Source: an uncultured Sphingomonas sp. | GTDB lineage: Bacteria > Pseudomonadota > Alphaproteobacteria > Sphingomonadales > Sphingomonadaceae | Direction: 5' to 3' | Length of the DNA: 64,000 nt | Assembly: GCA_913775315.1 (NCBI GenBank) | Contig: CAJYIX010000017.1 | Coordinates: forward strand, 1 to 64,000 | In this document: piece after piece, positions 1,734 through 51,123 of the stretch | How positions within the stretch are numbered: the first letter of the stretch is position 1 | How the letters are laid out: each line of letters opens with the position of its first letter | Notes under the pieces: generated by a model | Told to the model about the DNA's origin: nothing | The model's database searches: none | What the model saw: only the letters and a program-made list of their open reading frames with translations | Translations under genes and position numbers: made by a program

Positions 1734-4280
1734 TTAGTAAATCCCGCCCTCCCTTTGCAAGAAATCGCTGTCGGACGGGCGCTGCTGCGTCTGGCGGCGC
1801 GCCGCGGCGGCCGCGGCCTTCGCCTTGGCGGCGGCCTCGGCCCGCTCTTGCGCCTCGGCCTCGCGGTTGCGGCGCTGGCGGGTGGGTTCGCTCTCGGGCT
1901 TAAAGGCTTCCCAGATCACCGATGCCTTGGGATCGTCGGTCGGCCACGCCCCCGTCACCGGCCGGCCCGAGCCGCGGTCGATCCGCACCATCCGCGTGCC
2001 CGGCGGCGCGCGGAACGGCAGCACCTCCATCCCCTCCCACGCCTTCGTCGCGAACGCCTTGAAAATCGGCGCGGCGACAGTGCCGCCCTGCGCATAGCCG
2101 CCCAGGCTGCGCGGCTGGTCGTAGCCAAGATAAAGGCCGGCGATCATCTGCGGCGTACCGCCGACGAACCACACGTCGGTCGGCCCGGTCGACGTCCCCG
2201 TCTTGCCCATGATCGGCCGGCCGAGGTCGCGCAGGATCGTCGCGGTGCCGCGCTGGATCACGCCCTCGGCCACGTGCGTCATCTGATAGGCGCTGACCGC
2301 ATCGACGACCTGCCGCGCGCGGATGCGCGGGCGCGGCATCGGCTTGCCGTCCCAATCGGGCATGTTGCACCGCTCGCACGCGCGCCACCGCTCGGGCCAG
2401 ATCACCTCGCCCTTGCGGTTCTGGACGAAGTCGATGACGCTGGGGGTCAGCTGGCGCCCGTTGTTGGCGAGGATCGAATAGGCGTTGACCATCCGCATCA
2501 CCGTCGTCTCGCCCGCGCCCAGCGCATAGGAGAGATAGGGCGCGTATTTCTGGTCGGTGATGCCGATGCGCTGCATCAGCCCGACGACCTTTTCCATGCC
2601 CGTCCGGTTCGCCGCCTGCACCGTCATCAGGTTGCGCGACTGTTCGAGGCCCCAGCGGATCGTATGCGGCCCCGCCCCGCGCGAATTACCGAAGTTGCGG
2701 AAGCATTTCTGCCCCAGCCGCGCGCCCTGATAGACGCAGAACGGGCCGTCGACGATGATCGTCGCGGGGGTCATTCCCGCCTCGAACGCGGCGGCATAGA
2801 CGATCGGCTTGATCGTCGAACCCGGCTGGCGCATCGCCTGCGTCGCGCGATTGAAGCTGTCGAGGCTGGCGTCGAACCCGCCCTGCAGCGCGAGGAGCCG
2901 GCCCGTCCGCGGGTCCTCCACCACCATGCCGCCCGAAATCTTGGGAATACTGCGAAGGACCCACTGCCCGCCCTCGGGCGCGACAGCGACCACGTCGCCG
3001 GCCTTCAACGCGGCGAAGGCAGTCCCGCCCTTGCCGCGGACTGGCATCTGCGCGCCCCAGCGCGGCATCGTGCCGGTGGTGCCGTCGGTAAAGCCAATCT
3101 CGGCACTGTCCGACCCGCGCGACACGACCACGCCGACGCGCCAGTCGTCGAAGTCGATCGCCATGTTGCTGGCGAGCAGCGGCCCCTGCCAGCCATCGGC
3201 GATGTCGAGCGTCTTGATCGGCCCCGACCAGCCGCGCCCCGAATCGAAACGGAGCAGCCCGCGGCGCAGCGCGTCGGTCGCGTCGGCCTGTATCTTGGGG
3301 TCGAGCGAGGTGCGCACCCAAAGGCCACCGTCATAGACGCTGTACGGCCCCTCCGCCGCCTTCTCACCGAAGCGGTCGATCAGCTGGCGCCGCACTTCCT
3401 CGACATAATAGCCGGCGTTCGACTGGAGCGTCGGGAGCTGGCGGTCGGACAGACCCAGCGGCTCGCCACGCGCGGTCTGGTACTGCGTGTTGTTGATGAA
3501 GCCGTTGCGCAGCATCTCCGACAACACCCAGTTGCGCCGCTCGAGCGCGCGATCGGCATTCGCCGCGCGGCCATAACTTTCGGGCGCCTTGGGCAGCGTC
3601 GCGAGGAACGCCATCTCCTGAAGCGCGAGCTGGTCCACGTCCTTGTTGAAATAGGCGCGCGCCGCCGCCTGCACGCCGAACGCGCGCCGTCCCATCGGAA
3701 TGCCGTTGAGATAGAGCTCGAGGATCTGCGGCTTGGTCAGCGCATCCTCGATCCGCCAGGCGAGGATCATCTCGCGCACCTTGCGCGAGGGCGAATATTC
3801 GTTGCCGATCAGCAAATTCTTGGCGACCTGCTGGGTGATGGTCGACCCGCCGCGGGCGCGCGCGCCGGTGCCCATCTTGCTGACGTAATCGACCACCGCG
3901 CCGGCGAAACCGGGGAAATCGACGCCGTGATGCTCGAAGAAGGTCTTGTCCTCGGCCGCGAGGAACGCGCGGACGAGCAGCGGCGGGAACTCGGCATAGT
4001 CGAGCTCGACGCGCCGCTCGCGCGCATAGGTGTGGATGGGCGTCCCGTCGGCCGAACGGATCGTGGTGGGGAGCGGCGGCTCATAGGCCTTGAGCGCATC
4101 GACACTCGGCAGGTCGCGCGCGAACAGCGCCCAGCCAGCGACCATGCCGATGCCAGCCAGCAGCGCCAGCACGGCAAGCAGCCGGAACCACCAGCGCCGG
4201 CGCAACCGGGTGAACCACCCGCCCGCACCCTCGCCGCGCTGGAGCCTGAAATTGACCGAGTTCGCGTCCGCTTCCGCCAT
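1734..4280 (-). CDS. mrcA: Penicillin-binding protein 1A (class A, bifunctional)
   Basis: Polymerises glycan strands and cross-links peptides of peptidoglycan; acts in the periplasm, anchored in the inner membrane. The 848-residue length is typical. A cytoplasmic head is followed by a membrane segment at about 32-53. The GT51 glycosyltransferase shows its catalytic EDKTFFEHHG at 110-119 and GGSTITQQVAKN from 144. The transpeptidase shows STIK (Ser488), SRN, and KTGTS (Lys693). The C-terminal tail is rich in Ala, Arg and Gln. The amidase gene lies 70 bases upstream on the same strand, so wall synthesis and wall cleavage are linked. All key catalytic motifs are intact. Confidence 0.96.
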   Translation of the reverse strand: MAEADANSVNFRLQRGEGAGGWFTRLRRRWWFRLLAVLALLAGIGMVAGWALFARDLPSVDALKAYEPPLPTTIRSADGTPIHTYARERRVELDYAEFPPLLVRAFLAAEDKTFFEHHGVDFPGFAGAVVDYVSKMGTGARARGGSTITQQVAKNLLIGNEYSPSRKVREMILAWRIEDALTKPQILELYLNGIPMGRRAFGVQAAARAYFNKDVDQLALQEMAFLATLPKAPESYGRAANADRALERRNWVLSEMLRNGFINNTQYQTARGEPLGLSDRQLPTLQSNAGYYVEEVRRQLIDRFGEKAAEGPYSVYDGGLWVRTSLDPKIQADATDALRRGLLRFDSGRGWSGPIKTLDIADGWQGPLLASNMAIDFDDWRVGVVVSRGSDSAEIGFTDGTTGTMPRWGAQMPVRGKGGTAFAALKAGDVVAVAPEGGQWVLRSIPKISGGMVVEDPRTGRLLALQGGFDASLDSFNRATQAMRQPGSTIKPIVYAAAFEAGMTPATIIVDGPFCVYQGARLGQKCFRNFGNSRGAGPHTIRWGLEQSRNLMTVQAANRTGMEKVVGLMQRIGITDQKYAPYLSYALGAGETTVMRMVNAYSILANNGRQLTPSVIDFVQNRKGEVIWPERWRACERCNMPDWDGKPMPRPRIRARQVVDAVSAYQMTHVAEGVIQRGTATILRDLGRPIMGKTGTSTGPTDVWFVGGTPQMIAGLYLGYDQPRSLGGYAQGGTVAAPIFKAFATKAWEGMEVLPFRAPPGTRMVRIDRGSGRPVTGAWPTDDPKASVIWEAFKPESEPTRQRRNREAEAQERAEAAAKAKAAAAAARRQTQQRPSDSDFLQREGGIY

Positions 4281-4350
4281 CAGGCGCGCGGTTTAGACGA
4301 GGTTGCGTCGGTTGGAAATGCCGCCGCGGCGAGTGGAGCGACGCCGATTT

Positions 4351-5622
4351 TCAGCGCGACGCCATCCGCCGCGCGAAATAGACCTCGGCTGCGCGCGCGA
4401 CGCTTTCGGCCACCTTCTTGCGCCCGTCCTTCGACCCTAGGAACTCGGCATCGCCCGCGTTCGAGATATAGCCTGTCTCGAACAGGATCGACGGCATGTC
4501 CGGCGCCTTGAGCACGACGAGGCTCGCCATCCGATGGAAATTGTCCTTGGTCGGCATCAGCGGCTTGGCCTCGCGCCCCAGCAGCCGTGCGAAGCTGGCC
4601 GAGCGGTTCATCGTCTCGCGCTGGGCCAGGTCGATGAGCAGCGAGGAGATGTCGCTCGCCTGATCGCCGAGGTCGAGGCCGGCGATGATGTCGGCCTTGT
4701 TCTCGCGCGCCGCCAGCCGCGCGGCCTCCTTGTCGGAGGCGACTTCGGACAGAGTGTAGGCGGTGGCGCCGGTCGCCTCCGGGTTGCCCGCACTGTCGCA
4801 GTGGATCGAGATGAACAGGTCCGCCTTCAGCCGCCGGGCGATGCCGTACCGCTCCTGCAAGATCAGGAACCGGTCGTCCTCACGCGTCAACGCGACGCGG
4901 ACGCGGCCGCTGTCGAGGAGGCGCTCCTTGATCGCCAGCGCGGTCTTGAGCGTCACGTCCTTCTCGCGCAGCCCCGCCTCGTCGTTCAGCGCGCCGGGAT
5001 CCTTGCCGCCATGGCCCGCGTCGATCACCACCAGCGGGCGGCTGTCGTCGTCGCCGTAAATGCGCGGCAGCGCAGGCGCCCGCTTCGCCGCGGGCACGGG
5101 CAGGCTGACGCGCGAGCCGACATTGGCCGGCGGCATGCTGGGCCGGCGCGCCATCTCGAACCCGCCGTCGAAGCCGGCGAGCGGCAATCGGCCCTCTGCG
5201 GCGGCGCGCGCGAACCGCTGGTCGTCGACACGGCGAAGGACGAGCGTCAGCGTGCCGCTGGCGGCATCGAACCGCCCCTCGCGAACGATCGCCGGCCGGT
5301 CGAGGTCGAAGACGAGCCGCGCGCCGCGTTCGGTCGCGCCCTGGCGCACGCGCGCCACCGGCCCGCCCGATTCGACCCGCGCACCGGGCGCGACGCCCGC
5401 GATATCGAGCGCGATCCGCCGCGGCGCGTCGAGGATGAAGGTCGAGGCGCCCGCCGCATTCCCATCCAGCCGCACCACGATCGCTTCGTCGCTGACCCGC
5501 ACCTCGGCAAGGTCGCCCGCCAGCGCGGGAACGCCGCCTGCCCAAGCGGCGAGAAGCGCGAAGATCCACATCACCCGCACGCTATGGCGCGCCGCCCGCG
5601 CAGCGGTCCAGTCAAAACGCAT
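4351..5622 (-). CDS. amiC: N-acetylmuramoyl-L-alanine amidase (AmiC type)
   Basis: Zinc amidase that cuts the bond between MurNAc and L-Ala, normally for daughter-cell separation. The 423-residue protein has a signal segment at about 13-36, an AMIN domain at about 37-130 (septal or peptidoglycan targeting), a linker, and an Amidase_3 domain from about 196. Zinc and catalytic residues are visible: His204 in DAGHGGKDPG, Glu220 in LREKD, His274 in SIHCD and Glu382 in FETGY. It is first in a leftward block with mrcA and prfB and is divergent from rne. The AMIN plus Amidase_3 order supports AmiC rather than AmiA. Confidence 0.93.
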   Translation of the reverse strand: MRFDWTAARAARHSVRVMWIFALLAAWAGGVPALAGDLAEVRVSDEAIVVRLDGNAAGASTFILDAPRRIALDIAGVAPGARVESGGPVARVRQGATERGARLVFDLDRPAIVREGRFDAASGTLTLVLRRVDDQRFARAAAEGRLPLAGFDGGFEMARRPSMPPANVGSRVSLPVPAAKRAPALPRIYGDDDSRPLVVIDAGHGGKDPGALNDEAGLREKDVTLKTALAIKERLLDSGRVRVALTREDDRFLILQERYGIARRLKADLFISIHCDSAGNPEATGATAYTLSEVASDKEAARLAARENKADIIAGLDLGDQASDISSLLIDLAQRETMNRSASFARLLGREAKPLMPTKDNFHRMASLVVLKAPDMPSILFETGYISNAGDAEFLGSKDGRKKVAESVARAAEVYFARRMASR

Positions 5623-6089
5623 CGCCCTGTCAGCCCCTTTTCGTTGGCATGAGGGTTAGCGATGACCCCTTGGAGTGAAGTGAAATGGCGCGGTTAACGC
5701 GTCGTTCGGCACGATTTTGCCGGCAGGGCGGCAGAAACGCGCCGGTTGATGCGCGGGCGACCCGGTGCTACGTCGCAGATTACCGATACTGGCGCGTCGA
5801 GGTTTGATGCACAGCCATGTCGGGACATCCGCCCGATCCGGCGTGCTTCACGGGGTCGGACGCTCACAGGTTGACGCTGCAATGAGGCTTGTTTCCGTCC
5901 TTCGCCACCCCGCCGCCCCTTGGGGCCGGCGCGTGGCAGGGATGCTGCCGGGCGAACGCCCCGGCCGGCTCTTCGCAGCAGAGGCACTTCATCCACATCG
6001 AACGGCCCCCGACGCGATGCGCGCAGGGGCCAATCCATCGCATCGGCGCCCGGCCGGCCACGCGCCGCCGACGCCGCGGAGAGTTTTGA
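5623..6089 (+). promoter_or_regulatory. rne leader: Long non-coding gap: divergent promoters and probable rne 5' leader
   Basis: These 467 bases between amiC and rne hold no credible gene; short frames here lack family resemblance. Known biology: RNase E autoregulates through its long structured 5' untranslated region, and this gap fits such a leader. Hairpin-forming stretches are visible, for example GCCCC-TT-GGGGC at 5915-5926. A TTGACG at 5871-5876 could be a -35 element, but no convincing -10 follows at the right distance. Assignment as an rne leader is inference from position and length. Confidence 0.4.
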
Positions 6090-8807
6090 ATGGCAACACG
6101 CATGTTGATCGACGCACGGCACCGGGAGGAAACCCGGGTCGCCGTCGTCCAGGGTAACCGCATCGAGGAATTCGACTTCGAGTCGGCCGAGCGCAAGCAG
6201 CTCAAGGGGAACATCTATCTGGCCAAGGTGACGCGCGTCGAGCCGTCGCTCCAGGCCGCGTTCGTCGATTACGGCGGCAATCGCCACGGCTTCCTCGCCT
6301 TTTCCGAAATCCACCCCGATTACTACCAGATCCCCAAGGAGGATCGCGACGCCCTGCTCGCCGAAGAGGCCGAGCACGCCGCCGAGGAAGCCGCGCTGCG
6401 CGCCGCCGAGGATCATGACGACGACGAGGACGGCGACGTCGAGGTGCTCGAGCGCCCCGGCGACGACGAGGATGACGCCGAGCACGACGGCGATCATGGC
6501 GGCGAAGAGGGCGCGCCCGCCCCGCGCCGCAAGAAGGGCAATGGCGACGACCCTGCAGAGGCGCTGCGCCAGCGCCGCATGAATCTGCGCCGTCGCTACA
6601 AGATCCAGGACGTGATCCGCCGCCGCCAGGTGCTGCTGGTCCAGGTCGTCAAGGAAGAGCGCGGCAACAAGGGTGCGGCGCTGACGACGTACCTGTCGCT
6701 CGCGGGTCGTTACTGCGTCCTCATGCCCAACACCGCGCATGGCGGCGGCATCAGCCGCAAGATCAGCTCGGCTGCCGACCGCAAGCGGCTGAAGGCGATC
6801 ATGGCCGACATGAAGCTGCCCTCGACCATGGGCTGCATCGTGCGCACCGCCGGCCTTCAGCGCACCAAGACCGAGATCAAGCGCGACTTCGACTATCTCG
6901 CCCGGCTGTGGGACGGGATTCGCGAGAACACGCTCAAGTCCTCGGCCCCCGCGCTCGTCTATGGCGACAGCGACCTGATCAAGCGGGCGATCCGCGACAT
7001 CTACAATCGAGAGATCGACGAGGTGATCGTCGAGGGCGAGGAAGGGTATCGCCACGCCAAGGATTTCATGAAGCTGCTGATGCCCAGCCATGCGCGGCGG
7101 GTGAAGCAATATTCGGACGCCGTACCGCTCTTCCAGCGGTTCGGCGTCGAGGATCAGCTGGCGGCGATGTACCACCCCGTCGTCCAGCTGAAGTCCGGCG
7201 GCTACCTGGTCATCAATCCGACCGAGGCGCTGGTCTCGATCGACATCAACTCGGGCCGCTCGACGCGCGAGCACAATATCGAGCAGACCGCGACCGCAAC
7301 CAACCTCGAGGCGGCGCACGAGATCGCGCGCCAGCTTCGCCTGCGCGACATGGCCGGCCTCGTCGTCATCGACTTCATCGACATGGATCACTCGTCCAAC
7401 GTCCGTAAGGTCGAGAAGGCGATGAAGGAGGCGCTGAGGAACGATCGCGCCCGCATTCAGGTCGGCCGCATCAGCGCCATCGGCCTGATGGAAATGAGCC
7501 GCCAGCGGCTGCGCACCGGCGTGCTCGAAGCTTCCACCCGCACCTGTCCGCATTGCGAGGGCACGGGGCTCGTCCGCACTGCCTCGTCCGCAGGCCTGTC
7601 GGCGCTCCGCCTGATCGAGGAGGAGGCTGCGCGCGGTCGCGGATCGCAGCTCCTGCTGCGCGCCAGCCAGGAAGCCGCCTTCTACGTCCTCAACAAGAAG
7701 CGCGCCGACATCGCCGAAATCGAGGATCGCTACGGCGTGATGGTCGAGGTCGCCGCGGATGGCGAGCTCGAGGGCGCGCGCATGTCGGTCGAGGCCTCCG
7801 GCCCCCCGCCGGCCTATGCGCCCAAGCTCGACCCGATCGTCGAGGAGTTCGACGAGCCCGAGATCGAGGAGTTCGACGAGGAAGAGGAAGAAGAGGAAGC
7901 CGTCGAGGCCACCGAGACCGAGCAGGCCGAACCGCGCCGCGAGCGCGAGCGTGAGCGCTCGGGCGAAGGCGACGAGGGCGGCCGCGGCCGCAAGCGTCGC
8001 CGCCGCCGCGGTCGCCGCGGTCGCCAGCGCGAGGACGAGAACGGCAACGCCGGGGAAAGCGAAGCCGGTGACAGCGAGGGCGAGAGCGACGCCTCCGACG
8101 AAACCGTCGAGGGCGATGCCGAGACGGTGACCGCCGAAACCCAGGCACCGGCCGAGGGTGGCGAGCGTCGCCGCCGTCGCCGCCGCCGTCGTGGCGGTCG
8201 CCGCGAGGAAGGCGAGTCGCGGGTCGCCGTCGACGTCTCGGACGACAACGCCGACGATGCCGCCGAGCCAGTCGAGGATGAAGCCCCGGTCGAGGCCGAA
8301 ACCGCCGTCACCATCGCCGATGCGACCCCGGCCGAGCCGGTCGAGGCAGCGCCGGCCAAGCCCAAGCGCACCCGCCGCAAGAAGGCGGACGTAGAGGCCG
8401 CGCCGGTCGAGGCCGAGGTCGAAGCGGCACCTGTGGCCGACGCGGAAGCCGAGGCGCCGATCAAGCCCAAGCGTACCCGCCGCAAGAAGGCGGATGTGGA
8501 GGCTGCACCGGTCGAGGCCGAAGTCGAGGCGGCGCCGGTTGCCGACGCGGAAGCCGAGGCGCCAGCCAAGCCGAAGCGTACCCGACGCAAGAAGGCCGAC
8601 GCCGCGCCGGTCGATGCTACTGCCGGGGCAGCGATGCCCGCCGACCGTACGCCCGAGCCGGTTTCGGTCGTCGGCGAAATGGCACAGCCGATGGAGGCGG
8701 AGGCTACGGCCACCGAGGCGGATGCTGCGCCGACGGTCGTCTCGACCGAACCCGAAGGTCCGCCGCGCCGCGGCTGGTGGCAGCGCACCTTCGGCGGCAC
8801 CGAATAA
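6090..8807 (+). CDS. rne: Ribonuclease E/G family endoribonuclease
   Basis: Central RNA decay and processing endonuclease. The 905-residue product starts MATRMLIDARHREETRV, as in alphaproteobacterial RNase E. The S1 domain (about 37-190) is split by a highly acidic insertion at about 95-150, common in this class. The catalytic DNase I-like region follows, and the zinc-link CPHC is at 486-489. The C-terminal third is low complexity, with acidic and arginine-rich blocks and about 2.3 copies of a 35-residue repeat containing KPKRTRRKKAD; this is likely the disordered RNA-binding and degradosome scaffold. It has its own terminator at 8810-8838. The extensive open frame on the opposite strand is a GC artefact. 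Confidence 0.96.
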   Translation: MATRMLIDARHREETRVAVVQGNRIEEFDFESAERKQLKGNIYLAKVTRVEPSLQAAFVDYGGNRHGFLAFSEIHPDYYQIPKEDRDALLAEEAEHAAEEAALRAAEDHDDDEDGDVEVLERPGDDEDDAEHDGDHGGEEGAPAPRRKKGNGDDPAEALRQRRMNLRRRYKIQDVIRRRQVLLVQVVKEERGNKGAALTTYLSLAGRYCVLMPNTAHGGGISRKISSAADRKRLKAIMADMKLPSTMGCIVRTAGLQRTKTEIKRDFDYLARLWDGIRENTLKSSAPALVYGDSDLIKRAIRDIYNREIDEVIVEGEEGYRHAKDFMKLLMPSHARRVKQYSDAVPLFQRFGVEDQLAAMYHPVVQLKSGGYLVINPTEALVSIDINSGRSTREHNIEQTATATNLEAAHEIARQLRLRDMAGLVVIDFIDMDHSSNVRKVEKAMKEALRNDRARIQVGRISAIGLMEMSRQRLRTGVLEASTRTCPHCEGTGLVRTASSAGLSALRLIEEEAARGRGSQLLLRASQEAAFYVLNKKRADIAEIEDRYGVMVEVAADGELEGARMSVEASGPPPAYAPKLDPIVEEFDEPEIEEFDEEEEEEEAVEATETEQAEPRRERERERSGEGDEGGRGRKRRRRRGRRGRQREDENGNAGESEAGDSEGESDASDETVEGDAETVTAETQAPAEGGERRRRRRRRRGGRREEGESRVAVDVSDDNADDAAEPVEDEAPVEAETAVTIADATPAEPVEAAPAKPKRTRRKKADVEAAPVEAEVEAAPVADAEAEAPIKPKRTRRKKADVEAAPVEAEVEAAPVADAEAEAPAKPKRTRRKKADAAPVDATAGAAMPADRTPEPVSVVGEMAQPMEAEATATEADAAPTVVSTEPEGPPRRGWWQRTFGGTE
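8358..8602 (+). repeat. 105-base in-frame tandem repeat in the rne C-terminal region
   Basis: Units start at 8358, 8463 and 8568, a period of exactly 105 bases or 35 codons; the third copy is partial. Each unit encodes a basic KPKRTRRKKAD segment followed by an acidic-proline stretch built from EAAPVEAEVE-like residues. Copies differ only at scattered, mostly third-position bases, pointing to recent expansion or conversion. Confidence 0.85.
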
Positions 8808-47722: not shown

Positions 47723-48331
47723 CTAGGCCGGTGACAGGCGATAGCCAAGCCCGCGGTCAGTGCGCAGCATGGGCGCAGCGCCCGGCGGGTCGAGTTCCGC
47801 GCGCAGCCGCGCGACATGCACCTGCACGACATTGGTGCCGGGATCGAAGCCGAGCCGCCAGATCGCCCGCAACAGCTCGGCGCGCGGCACCGGCCGACCG
47901 GCATGGCGCGCGAGATAGGCCAGCAGCGCATATTCGCGGGGACGAAGATGCAGCGACCGGCCGCCCCGCACTGCCGTCCTCGCAATCGGGTCGAGCGACA
48001 GGTCGCCGACCGTGACGCGCCCCGCGACGCTGCGCAGCCGCGCGGCCAGCCGGGCGGCGATCTCCGCCGGGGCGGCATCCGCGCAGACCGCCTCGTCCGC
48101 GCCTGCGTCCAGCGCCTCGATTACGCGATCGGGCCGATCGACCAGCAGCATCAGCGGGCCAGTCCAGCCGGTCTCCCGCACCTGTGCGACCATCGCCCGC
48201 GGCGCGGCGATGCTGGAGAGCATTACCGCATCGACCTCCCCCGCCAGCGGCGCCAGCGCGAGCAGGCCGCGCGCCGCGAGCGCGGCGGCAAGCGCAGGGC
48301 TCAGCGGGTCACAGGCTATGCGGGCGAGCAT
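47723..48331 (-). CDS. Orphan OmpR-type regulator with degenerate receiver domain
   Basis: 202 residues. The C-terminal winged helix is well conserved (HLRPREYALLAYLARHAGRP, VVQVHVARLRAELDPPG, DRGLGYRLS). The N-terminal receiver-like half (about 1-100) lacks the acidic pair and has Ser39-Ser40 (VMLSSIAAP) where the phospho-acceptor Asp should be, so it is unlikely to be phosphorylated. No kinase gene is near. ATG 48331 is preferred to the adjacent GTG at 48334. It lies 22 bases after the cupin-like gene in the same direction and is a natural candidate to regulate that unit. Confidence 0.82.
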   Translation of the reverse strand: MLARIACDPLSPALAAALAARGLLALAPLAGEVDAVMLSSIAAPRAMVAQVRETGWTGPLMLLVDRPDRVIEALDAGADEAVCADAAPAEIAARLAARLRSVAGRVTVGDLSLDPIARTAVRGGRSLHLRPREYALLAYLARHAGRPVPRAELLRAIWRLGFDPGTNVVQVHVARLRAELDPPGAAPMLRTDRGLGYRLSPA

Positions 48332-48353
48332 CACGCCTGCAAATTACAGGTCT

Positions 48354-49253
48354 TCACGCCGGATCGGTTCGAACCTGATCCAGATCGGTCGCGATGGCGT
48401 GCGCGTGCGCGGCAAGCATCCGATCGGCGGCGATGTCGGGCTTTGCCAACAGCGGACGTGCCATGTCGGGGGCGATCCGCGCGAGCGTTCGCCATGCCGC
48501 GACCCTGACGCAAGGATCGCGATGACCCCGCCCGAACGCCTCGACTAGGTCGAGGCCCTTGCCCAGCGCTGCCGCGAGGTCGAGCAGTAACGCCGCGGGC
48601 ATCACCGCAAGCGCGCCCGCCACGCATCCGCGATCGGTGTCGTAGCGATACTGGCCCCGCCATGGCGCGGCATCGTCGCGCACCAGCAGGTTGACCGACA
48701 CCGACAATGCCGCTGGCGGCGCCTGCGCATGTATGTCGTGATAGGCGCGATAGAGCCGGACATCGCCGGGCGCGAGGCGATGCCGGCCAACCGGCACGAG
48801 CGCGACGGGCTCGCCGGCGATTCCGGCATGCGGCGCGGCCAGCGTCCATTCGTCGCTCCAATAGCCCGGTCCTGCATGGCCGCAGGTGAGGAACGCGAAA
48901 TCATGATCGTGCGCCGTCCCGTAGAAGAACGCCGCGGGTGCGCTGTCGGCGAGCATCGCGTCGCCGATGCCCGGCCAGAAGGCGGCGCGCAGCACGAACC
49001 GGCGACCGGGCGGGGCGAGCAGCAGCGCCTGCGCGCCATAGCCGCCATTTTCCGCCGCGCCCCCGCCGCCCGCCAGCACCCGTTCGGCGACGCGTGCGAC
49101 GAGGCCGCGGTCGGCGGACAGCGCGGCCAGGTCGTCGGCCAGCGACGCGAGCCCCGCCTCGTCCTGCGGATCGACGCCCGACGCCTCGGCCCGCGACAGG
49201 CATTCGTCGGCATCAAGTGCGCCCGACGGCGCAGCGGGGATCAGACGGGACAT
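48354..49253 (-). CDS. Unknown protein: cupin-like domain plus HEAT-like C-terminus (paralogue A)
   Basis: 299 residues, no signal peptide. The centre (about 85-190) looks like a cupin/double-stranded beta-helix: FFYGTAHDHDFAFLTCG with His115 and His117, GPGYWSDEW, then RLAPGDVRLYRAYHDIHAQ with His175, which could hold a metal. The C-terminal 80 residues have HEAT-like helices (GHRDPCVRVAAWRTLARIAP). It shares this half with the preceding gene product, so the two are paralogues. It overlaps that gene by 13 bases. Function unknown; inference is a partner or modifying enzyme for the 45-residue peptide encoded upstream. Confidence 0.68.
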   Translation of the reverse strand: MSRLIPAAPSGALDADECLSRAEASGVDPQDEAGLASLADDLAALSADRGLVARVAERVLAGGGGAAENGGYGAQALLLAPPGRRFVLRAAFWPGIGDAMLADSAPAAFFYGTAHDHDFAFLTCGHAGPGYWSDEWTLAAPHAGIAGEPVALVPVGRHRLAPGDVRLYRAYHDIHAQAPPAALSVSVNLLVRDDAAPWRGQYRYDTDRGCVAGALAVMPAALLLDLAAALGKGLDLVEAFGRGHRDPCVRVAAWRTLARIAPDMARPLLAKPDIAADRMLAAHAHAIATDLDQVRTDPA

Positions 49254-50020
49254 GCCAGCATCGCCTGCGCCGCCATGGCCGCGGCCCGCACTTCGGGATG
49301 CGGATCGGCGATGGCCATTCGCGCCAACGTCGGCGCCGCCCCGCGCGCATCCTGCGCCAGCCAGTGCCGCATCGCCGCCCAGCGCACGAAGAAGGCGGGA
49401 TGGGCGCTCGCTGCCGCCAGCGCGCCGGTCCCGCCGCCGAGCGCGCCGAGCACCTCGACCAGCATCGCCGCCTGCGCCGCGTCACCCTCGGCGGCGGCCA
49501 CCCGGCGCAATCGCCCGCCGGGAAGCACATAGTCGCGCAGCAGCGGCGCGGCATCGACAGCCAGCGTCAGCGTCAGCAGGATCAGACCGCCCTCGCCGGC
49601 GACGAACCGATGCGCCTCGCGCCGTCCGTCGATCGCGAGGGCGCTGCCGCGGAGCACGTCCACCGATCGCCGCGGCCCCAGCGGCGAAGCGGTCGTCGCG
49701 CTGAAATCAGGCCCGACGACGCCCGCCTCCCAGCGATCGAGGCGCCCATCTCCGGCGAGGACGCGGACGAACGACTGCCGTCCCCCCGCGACGACGCCGC
49801 CCGGCGGCTCGCCCGCCGGCCGCAGCGCCGTCACCGCGAGTACGAGGTCGGCGCGCCGCTCGATCATCAGCGTCGCGCGATCACCCGTCACCCGCCCGGC
49901 CAGGGGCCAGCCCGCATTGGGCCGGGCAAGCAGCGGCGAAAGGATCGCCGCCGCCCAGTCGCCATCGGCGACCAGCGCGGCAGCGACGGCCGGGTCGCCC
50001 GCCCGGTCGAGCGCCGCCAT
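49241..50020 (-). CDS. Unknown protein with HEAT-like repeats (paralogue B)
   Basis: 259 residues from the first in-frame ATG at 50020. A CTG at 50059 overlapping the peptide stop (CTGA) would add 13 plausible residues (SDPVSAWRSGAA) and is a possible non-standard coupled start. The C-terminus has two clear HEAT-like motifs (HPAFFVRWAAMRHWLAQDA; DPHPEVRAAAMAAQAML). Its second half aligns by eye with that of the downstream protein (L..ALG.G...EA, VR.AA.R), but the His-rich cupin residues are absent here. Function unknown. The long open frame upstream of 50059 has poor codon use and overlaps the peptide gene. Confidence 0.65.
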   Translation of the reverse strand: MAALDRAGDPAVAAALVADGDWAAAILSPLLARPNAGWPLAGRVTGDRATLMIERRADLVLAVTALRPAGEPPGGVVAGGRQSFVRVLAGDGRLDRWEAGVVGPDFSATTASPLGPRRSVDVLRGSALAIDGRREAHRFVAGEGGLILLTLTLAVDAAPLLRDYVLPGGRLRRVAAAEGDAAQAAMLVEVLGALGGGTGALAAASAHPAFFVRWAAMRHWLAQDARGAAPTLARMAIADPHPEVRAAAMAAQAMLACPV

Positions 50021-50055
50021 CGCCGCGCCCGACCGCCACGCGGAAACCGGATCGC

Positions 50056-50193
50056 TCAGCGCCCGCCCCCCGTCATCGCGACGATATAGACATAGACGTC
50101 GTCGCCCTGCCGCTCGGCCGCGGGGATCGCGGCGGGATCGCCGACACGCGTGGCAAGGCTGGGCAGGCGATCGAGTGGAACGGTGGTCGGCAT
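50056..50193 (-). CDS. 45-residue peptide gene at the head of the HEAT/cupin unit
   Basis: The ATG at 50193 has AAGGGG seven bases upstream. The product begins MPTTVPLDRLPSLATRVGDP and ends DDVYVYIVAMTGGGR, with no cysteine, signal peptide or membrane segment. Of the two open frames here, this one has G or C at about 80 percent of third positions, as genes in this window do; the competing frame is Arg-rich with weaker third-position bias. The stop lies immediately before the region where paralogue B starts, so expression is coupled. It could be a precursor peptide, a small regulator or a subunit; I do not recognise a family. Confidence 0.6.
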   Translation of the reverse strand: MPTTVPLDRLPSLATRVGDPAAIPAAERQGDDVYVYIVAMTGGGR

Positions 50194-50317: not shown

Positions 50318-50749
50318 ATGGCCCCCATCCCCTTCCACCCCGAACAGTTCCTGACCCGCACGCAGGCGCATCACGGCGGCATCCTCGGCATCGGATACCG
50401 CGCGCACGGTCCCGACTGGGCCGAGCTCGACCTGCCGTGGAAGCCCGAGCTGGTCGGTGACGAAGCCAGCGGCGTGCTCGCCTCCGGACCGATCGTGGCG
50501 TTGATGGACATGGCAACCAGCGTCGCGGTCTGGATGAAGCGCGGCGGTTTCGTGCCGCACGCCACGCTCGACCTGCGCGTCGATTATCTGCGGCCGGCAC
50601 GCTCGGGCGAGACGGTGATCGGCCGCGGCGAATGCTATCGGCTGACGCGCGCAATCGCGTTCGTGCGGGGGATCGCGCATGACGGCGACCCCGACGATCC
50701 GGTGGCACACGTCGCCGGCACCTTCATGTCGACGGGTCTCAAGCCATGA
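50318..50749 (+). CDS. PaaI-family acyl-CoA thioesterase (first of pair)
   Basis: 143 residues, hot-dog fold. GDEASGVLASGPIVALMDMATSVAVW is the PaaI/4HBT active-site helix, with an Asp in the catalytic position, and ATLDLRVDYLRPARSGETV is the following strand pair. The start ATG at 50318 (MAPIPFHPEQFL) is preferred to an upstream in-frame ATG at 50282, which reads from the operator gap. Four-base overlap with the second thioesterase gene suggests the two form a heteromer or act in sequence on the same acyl-CoA. Confidence 0.83.
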   Translation: MAPIPFHPEQFLTRTQAHHGGILGIGYRAHGPDWAELDLPWKPELVGDEASGVLASGPIVALMDMATSVAVWMKRGGFVPHATLDLRVDYLRPARSGETVIGRGECYRLTRAIAFVRGIAHDGDPDDPVAHVAGTFMSTGLKP

Positions 50750-51123
50750 GCCTGCCCCCCTACGCCCGGCTGCTCGGCCTGCGCGTCGAACCCGACGATA
50801 GCGGCGCGCCGGTGCTCGTCATGCCGTTCGGCGACAAGGTGATGGGACGCCCCGGCTTCGTCCATGGCGGCGCGATCGGCGGGCTGGTCGAAATGGCGGC
50901 GGTCGCGGCGCTGCGTCACGCGCTGGCTGACGAGGGCGTGACGATCAAACCGATCAACCTCACCACCGATTTCATGCGCGGCGGCAAGGACGGCGACACG
51001 CGCGCGGCGGGGCATGTCGTCCGCCTTGGCACACGCATCGCCAATGTCGAGGCGTTCGCCTGGCAGGAAGACCGCGACCGCCCGATCGCGGCGGCGCGGA
51101 TCAACTTCCTGTTGGCGCGCTAG
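50746..51123 (+). CDS. PaaI-family acyl-CoA thioesterase (second of pair)
   Basis: 125 residues. GRPGFVHGGAIGGLVEMAAVAAL carries the HGG helix motif of PaaI thioesterases with Glu as catalytic acid, and INLTTDFMRGGKDGDTRAAG the central strands. It starts within the stop of the preceding gene (ATGA). It converges with the sugar dehydrogenase gene and shares its stop in a common CTAG. Substrate unknown. Confidence 0.85.
   Translation: MSLPPYARLLGLRVEPDDSGAPVLVMPFGDKVMGRPGFVHGGAIGGLVEMAAVAALRHALADEGVTIKPINLTTDFMRGGKDGDTRAAGHVVRLGTRIANVEAFAWQEDRDRPIAAARINFLLAR

Follow-up and report, generated by a model that had tools for sequence, protein, structure and literature searches.

What does a 45-residue peptide do at the head of two large, related proteins in a sphingomonad genome? 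The question arises from a 64,000-nt stretch of DNA from an uncultured Sphingomonas sp. (contig CAJYIX010000017.1; hereafter the window), in which four consecutive minus-strand genes, joined by overlaps or separated by a gap of 19–22 bases, occupy positions 50193–47723 and encode the peptide, two proteins that we call A and B, and a winged-helix regulator (Table 1). This leftward arrangement had been described in the original prediction, made from the sequence of the window, and we confirm it; the peptide–A–B layout also recurs in other genomes, beyond chance. The core module is peptide–A–B, with the regulator and nearby thioesterases as neighbours, and the 45-residue peptide is a real gene, evolving as a protein. 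The interpretation that we hold with moderate confidence is that the module resembles those of ribosomally synthesized and post-translationally modified peptides (RiPPs), with B oxidising the peptide and A as its inactive partner.

Evidence for the peptide gene comes from its recurrence and from its mode of evolution. In 38 of 40 loci fetched, an open reading frame (ORF) of 39–56 residues with a ribosome-binding site lies before A, and in L052, one of the two failures, the peptide is present with a GTG start, as seen in the duplicate locus L134; the second failure is L063. The training profile comprised 39 peptides, 38 chosen by eye from these loci together with the window’s own. Removing 11 duplicates of training loci and one internal duplicate from 80 named loci left 68 for a held-out set, and leaving out 7 with too little upstream sequence gave 61. 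The profile matches a peptide before A–B in 59 of these 61 at a score of at least 15 bits (57 at at least 20 bits) and none of 2196 control ORFs, drawn from the reverse strand and neighbouring stretches, at at least 10 bits. The held-out loci are other sphingomonads, not independent by descent; most of their peptides are nevertheless far from the nearest training peptide, with a median alignment score per position of 0.45, 43 of 59 scoring below 0.6 and a single one above 0.85. The window peptide, itself one of the 39 in the profile, matches with E 6.3e-6, and no other match arises in its genome up to E 10. In two groups of close relatives, the ratio of non-synonymous to synonymous polymorphism (pN/pS) is 0.40 (7 loci) and 0.13 (3 loci) in the peptide frame versus 1.2–2.1 in the two other frames, one locus of eight and one of four having been excluded for unequal length. 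The held-out profile test, together with protein-like evolution in the peptide frame only, rules out a chance ORF. The good ribosome-binding site of the original prediction is equally borne out: the window carries AAGGGG, ending seven bases 5′ of the peptide ATG.

Across 109 distinct sphingomonad loci, 101 contain a peptide match of at least 12 bits and none contains two. The eight loci without a match are L063, L121 and L141; L153, in which a similar ORF falls below the cut-off; and L127, L136, L138 and L155, which have too little upstream sequence. A search for homologues that consistently lack the peptide, proposed as a check with the original prediction, thus found near-obligate linkage in sphingomonads, and the prediction survives it. 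At L063, the peptide and most of A are replaced by other sequence (about positions 3600–5744, oriented) and the B frame is open, possibly a decaying module.

Most of the sphingomonad peptides share an N-terminal block, I/L-D-I/L-x-x-L/I-P-D/E-L-x-T-x-V-G/A followed by G-S, in which the shared columns are D (78/100), L or I (98/101), L (97/101), T (68/101), V/T/I (93/101), G or A (94/101) and a later G (95/100). Past this block come a variable linker, a D/E/C column (88/101 peptides) and a V/I-rich run; the most hydrophobic stretch is centred on average at 77% of peptide length (9% in the most extreme peptide). Both ends are conserved among the 101 peptides, and a division into leader and core is putative. 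The window peptide matches this general anatomy loosely.

AlphaFold2 (AF2) models of A and B, with predicted local distance difference test (pLDDT) scores of 94.5 and 93.2, respectively, each consist of N-terminal helices, the strands of a cupin barrel and C-terminal helices, and both proteins look soluble in these models. Comparison of their profiles aligns 250 columns including the barrel (E 3.1e-5, probability 73%), by which A and B are paralogues; the original prediction had aligned their C-terminal halves by eye, correctly and with some understatement. The Pfam HEAT_2 model matches 29 of 40 A proteins (best E 1.4e-8) and 6 of 41 B proteins (best E 9.1e-4), with the window’s A below threshold.

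It is at the putative metal site that the paralogues part. All 41 B proteins aligned have His at three columns, and no column of A has it in more than 17 of 40 proteins, in keeping with the earlier claim that only one paralogue retains a His-rich centre; the window’s A has a His aligned with H175 of B and none at H115 or H117. In a larger B alignment, with 128 rows for 124 loci, every row that covers the site has His at H115 and H117 (126 rows) and at H175 (127 rows), one of these H175 rows being an A protein (from L122) drawn in by the profile; R89 is kept in 125 of 126 covered rows. All three His are present in 123 of 124 loci, the exception being L147, where the gene is split over two frames (6001–6900, in a metagenome-derived genome). 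A Vibrio B at 23% identity (L212) retains R89, W93 and all three His, and because metal-site residues are kept down to this identity we favour catalysis by B.

Foldseek matches the B model best to thiol dioxygenases, led by mercaptosuccinate dioxygenase 8vni (E 1.8e-7, TM-score 0.43 by query and 0.63 by target), with further matches to 4tlf, 6xb9, 3-mercaptopropionate dioxygenase and many cysteine dioxygenase (CDO) entries. For A, the first match in the fold search is ergothioneine dioxygenase (E 2.8e-6), among other cupins. A profile alignment with thiol dioxygenases pairs H115-D-H117 of B with H99-D-H101, and H175 with H158, of bacterial relatives, which points to H115, H117 and H175 as the probable metal ligands. 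An equivalence between R89 of B and the carboxylate-binding Arg of CDO was considered and dropped, since the profile alignment does not align the two.

Distant relatives of A and B are accompanied by other peptides, and at two loci by exporters. On the Alteromonas plasmid pASTE61-200 (L211), genes for Yip1, HlyD, an ABC ATPase and a MacB/FtsX protein are followed by two peptide ORFs, A, B, a second ABC ATPase and an ABC-2 permease; both peptide ORFs have a ribosome-binding site and neither is annotated. At L193, ABC and MacB/FtsX genes precede three tandem peptide ORFs, A and B, after which comes another ABC ATPase. Ahead of the hydrophobic run, the first peptides of L193 and L211 have E-P-V in common; their later peptides have V-G-x-x-C in common. 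Single peptides occur at L176, L177 and L198 (36–40 residues), at L195 (with a repeated FIFAA stretch), at L199 and L200 (with an SGGG motif) and at L180 and L201 (lacking a hydrophobic tail), and similar peptides pair up between different genomes (L177/L198, L180/L201, L195/L197 and L199/L200). Ten of the distant peptides have nothing above threshold in Pfam and NCBIfam, and at L194 and L196 we found no convincing peptide. Of 12 distant places folded, 11 form a stable hairpin past the peptide gene, with z between −2.9 and −5.4, and L198 (z −1.4) is the exception; a visible hairpin had guided the choice of the first four places but not of the other eight, L198 among them. Constant A and B genes next to peptides that vary and sometimes multiply, together with such hairpins and with transporters, make up a picture typical of RiPP clusters, and the distant loci fit a RiPP reading.

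Other features of these loci were seen in passing. The distant A–B pair of L212, on Vibrio sp. ED002 plasmid p1-ED002 (5198–6754), has a short B and, in its vicinity, genes for a Tn3 transposase and for restriction-modification; a 59-residue peptide ORF follows B. L195 (4995–6642) and L197 (2601–4248) hold a divergent B and its preceding gene, ahead of which lies a peptide with repeated PPQ(N/D)Q stretches, and, by eye, adjoining hslV/hslU-like genes. Genes resembling an RND efflux pump and adaptor, again by eye, stand 5′ of peptide–A–B at L177 (3449–7806) and L198 (17–3821).

How close does the module come to systems already described? Against family models the original prediction of no recognised family holds: the window’s peptide, A and B have nothing above threshold in Pfam or NCBIfam, the 39 training peptides have no match in NCBIfam, and A and B likewise have none in PADLOC, where two A and two B proteins gave no match and the regulator gave one weak AbiEii fragment (E 0.004). 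It does not extend to the fold of B, which has clear relatives in the thiol dioxygenases. For B, PHROGs gave a single weak match (E 0.0034), to a family of unknown function. In a sequence search of the PDB, B had nothing convincing (best E 0.22) and A matched HEAT-type proteins (alphaRep, best E 9.1e-7; 5n3u, E 3.5e-4). Phycocyanobilin lyase and the designed alphaRep proteins resemble A in its C-terminal HEAT-like helices; unlike A, they match in the repeat part alone and bring no barrel and no peptide. Searches of the open-access literature brought up no description of the A–B pair among the records listed.

Among RiPPs, the nearest in layout are those of MNIO (DUF692) enzymes with a partner protein, as in the portions of PMC12257519 that describe the pbs cluster, where the MNIO PbsC acts with the partner PbsD, which contains a RiPP recognition element (RRE). 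These share a short precursor gene, an iron enzyme and a partner protein with the module as we propose it; in contrast, B has another fold, no RRE is recognised here and the partner A is a paralogue of the enzyme. PbsQ/BpmG of biphenomycin-like RiPPs, a cupin-like, JmjC-related hydroxylase that acts on Orn after other steps according to the same portions of PMC12257519, is like the proposed B in having a cupin fold and modifying a residue of a precursor peptide, in its case by hydroxylation. TMcins, introduced in a preprint (PMC13252029), keep a transmembrane helix in a RiPP-class product; unlike the present case, their maturation is by intramembrane proteins, and the main text of the preprint does not contain the words cupin or dioxygenase. 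The pertinent part of PMC10783134 mentions a Nif11 domain/cupin only.

Part of the original prediction was that a small peptide with an intact and a degenerate paralogue is a layout of peptide-modification and peptide-sensing systems. Comparative evidence (linkage, a metal site in B only, varied and tandem peptides, and exporters at two loci) supports modification well; sensing finds no specific support, the regulator being present in 48 of 107 loci. We infer a scheme that covers the action of B on the peptide, the type of reaction, the role of A, export in the window’s host and a biological purpose for the product, which may act on membranes, on competitors or as a signal. The N-terminal block of the precursor peptide would be recognised by A or by the A–B pair. 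The metal centre of B, by fold most likely Fe(II), would activate O2 and oxidise a residue within the hydrophobic C-terminal part or adjacent to it, candidate sites being the D/E/C position or the V/I residues. A, the paralogue whose metal site is lost, would hold the leader or complete a heterodimer. The product would be a short hydrophobic peptide for export, and a MacB-type pump adjoins the genes in two distant relatives. That the peptide is the substrate of B we consider rather likely; for the chemistry, oxidation at a 3-His iron, the balance tips just in favour. Whether all this amounts to a previously undescribed RiPP class, in which a two-protein maturase composed of a 3-His thiol-dioxygenase-fold cupin with HEAT-like helices and its dead twin oxidises short hydrophobic peptides, seems to us evenly poised.

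Several observations weigh against modification of the peptide by B. The putative core contains no invariant residue among 101 peptides, and Cys, present in 25 of them, is absent from 76, which makes general thiol oxidation unlikely. The hydrophobicity of the tail barely exceeds that of shuffled versions of these peptides, 24% of which attain the mean observed. Both held-out misses, L121 and L141, have A and B and no recognisable peptide, and outside the sphingomonads only the L193 peptides match the sphingomonad profile (19–22 bits), the others having been picked by eye. Nor do sequence comparisons place the proteins among thiol dioxygenases. Set against their profile, B is non-significant (E 0.055, probability 1%) and A has no match at all; the CDO family of Pfam (PF05995) matches 0 of 41 B proteins and nothing in the window’s genome, and NCBIfam matches 0 of 70. 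The S-x-H-x-Y motif after the third His, of which S171, H173 and Y175 are invariant in four bacterial relatives, is absent from B, which reads S186-x-N188-x-L190. B thus resembles CDO and the 3-mercaptopropionate and mercaptosuccinate dioxygenases in its best fold matches and paired His motifs, and differs from them in that motif, in its extra C-terminal helices, in the lack of a Pfam match, and in coming with a metal-less paralogous partner and a peptide gene; it may work as the thiol-dioxygenase fold does, but by the tests made it is not a member of the family. A leader-binding RRE domain was not detected by Pfam in 41 B and 40 A proteins, a profile search that can miss such domains. The junction of peptide and A in the window has neither hairpin (z 0.07) nor terminator. 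Beside the window’s module we recognised an enoyl-CoA hydratase and thioesterases and no exporter or protease, and by eye, without a family search, nothing exporter-like stood out among the 40 largest neighbour clusters of the sphingomonad loci; this last is a weak sign only, as the clustering used a crude ORF caller that missed B in 30 of 125 loci. RRE domains and linked export or immunity genes are frequent in RiPP systems and not obligatory.

Some of these observations would suit a different role for the peptide, as a small regulatory or structural subunit that stabilises or gates an A–B oxygenase working on a small molecule. The fold relatives of B are small-molecule dioxygenases, for which small thiols are the substrates known, the peptide is conserved at either end, and the window’s module has no recognised exporter beside it. 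We nonetheless regard such a subunit as unlikely: peptides change between clades while A–B stay, and the tandem peptide genes, hairpins and transporters of distant relatives better fit a separately expressed, exported product. The V/I-rich tails, together with the glycine-rich V-G-x-x-C peptides of L193 and L211 and a second ABC transporter that could confer immunity, would agree with an unmodified membrane-active peptide, bacteriocin-like or a small toxin, for which A and B provide self-protection, storage or help with transport. That we judge quite unlikely, for the metal-site residues that B keeps even in Vibrio ask for catalysis, and only 14 of the 101 sphingomonad peptides have a G-x-x-x-G/A spacing in their second half, a count on which we also dropped a likeness to two-peptide bacteriocins as a general feature.

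The regulator invites a further alternative, in which the adjacent winged-helix protein would sense the modified peptide as a signal. The receiver of this protein reads AVMLSSI in the window, at what we take to be the site where a receiver carries its phospho-Asp, and by eye the acceptor Asp is absent there and in 21 relatives inspected, as the original prediction of an unphosphorylatable receiver had it. A pseudo-receiver shared by relatives, in a gene within 1 kb past B in 48 of 107 loci with enough sequence, is what such signalling would lead one to expect; the remaining 59 loci lack this neighbour, the regulator may do no more than control its operon, and we hold signalling to be very improbable. 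Because it occurs in only 48 of 107 loci, the regulator is not a constant part of the module: it closes the unit in the window, as first described, and not in general. Modification of the peptide by B, with A as partner, remains the interpretation that we prefer.

Table 1. Coordinates of the module and its accessory gene in the window
Feature	Position	Strand	Basis
Peptide gene (45 aa, probable precursor; stop codon included)	50056..50193	-	ORF with AAGGGG before ATG; profile match; position in relatives
Protein A (272 aa from CTG): N-terminal helices, a cupin barrel lacking the metal ligands and a C-terminus of HEAT-like helices	49241..50059	-	AF2 pLDDT 94.5; paralogue of B
Protein B: thiol-dioxygenase-like cupin with putative ligands H115, H117, H175 and C-terminal helices; 299 aa	48354..49253	-	AF2 pLDDT 93.2; Foldseek; conserved ligands
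Most conserved core of B, R89 to D205, within gene B	48639..48989	-	Invariant or nearly invariant columns; coordinates converted by hand
Winged-helix regulator with pseudo-receiver, accessory	47723..48334	-	PF00486 (DNA-binding domain), E 4e-22; 48/107 loci

Within the unit, the start of A is ambiguous: it is either a CTG at 50059–50057 that overlaps the peptide TGA, or an ATG at 50020, 13 codons on. Because a TTG, ATG or GTG start of A overlaps the peptide stop likewise in L040, L043 and L044, the CTGA of the window could be the same coupling. The start of B overlaps the end of A by 13 bases, and the regulator begins at GTG 48334 or ATG 48331, 19 or 22 bases past B. An enoyl-CoA hydratase gene lies downstream of the unit and two divergent hotdog thioesterase genes upstream; the latter stand in tandem on the plus strand at 50318–51123, the first of them conserved beside the module. 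A divergent thioesterase is present in 61 of 109 loci, an adjacency probably due to shared ancestry.

A lies immediately 5′ of B in 108 of 109 loci, with an overlap in 99, a gap of at most 30 bases in 8 and a larger one in 1; the 108 include the L063 remnant and three loci with A matched in part only (L089, L125 and L157), and the exception, L138, begins at a contig end. In L071 (4039–8290), two A–B pairs stand in tandem. Six genomes (G027, G087, G186, G255, G286 and G297) are among those with two B genes; in G176 and G180, two B matches look like one gene cut by contig ends. At five loci, L079 among them, the gene after B is on the same strand and from a shared family (cluster 35), by eye probably a membrane protein.

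In the window’s own family, B has homologues in 105 of the 298 genomes sampled, spread over 46 of 96 genera, with the window’s genome included. B was found in 15 of 398 genomes of a phylum sample, 13 of them of the same family, and in 6 of 385 of a class sample, where one match is short (E 6e-4). A further family of this class gave 2 of 80, and two families outside the class gave 7 of 119, including a match at E 7e-4, and 4 of 118. In a scan of the sequence collection, the best 80 of 371 stretches were used, all sphingomonads by title except one labelled ‘bacterium’. Among 72,556 plasmid records, a single query (B of L047) matched two, from Alteromonas stellipolaris and Vibrio sp. A phage origin was also considered and set aside, as a scan of viral contigs gave no relative.

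If our interpretation is right, it would assign a role to a conserved locus that no family model describes and that is present in these 105 genomes and 46 genera, in a family whose well-known RiPPs are lasso peptides. Peptide modification would gain a new enzyme fold, and there would be a further way of making oxidised hydrophobic peptides. With a core of three genes, and with A and B looking soluble in the models, the proposal is directly testable in Escherichia coli. A two-protein class of maturase would then be found in about a third of the family’s sampled genomes and, together with transporter genes, on a plasmid of the marine Alteromonas.

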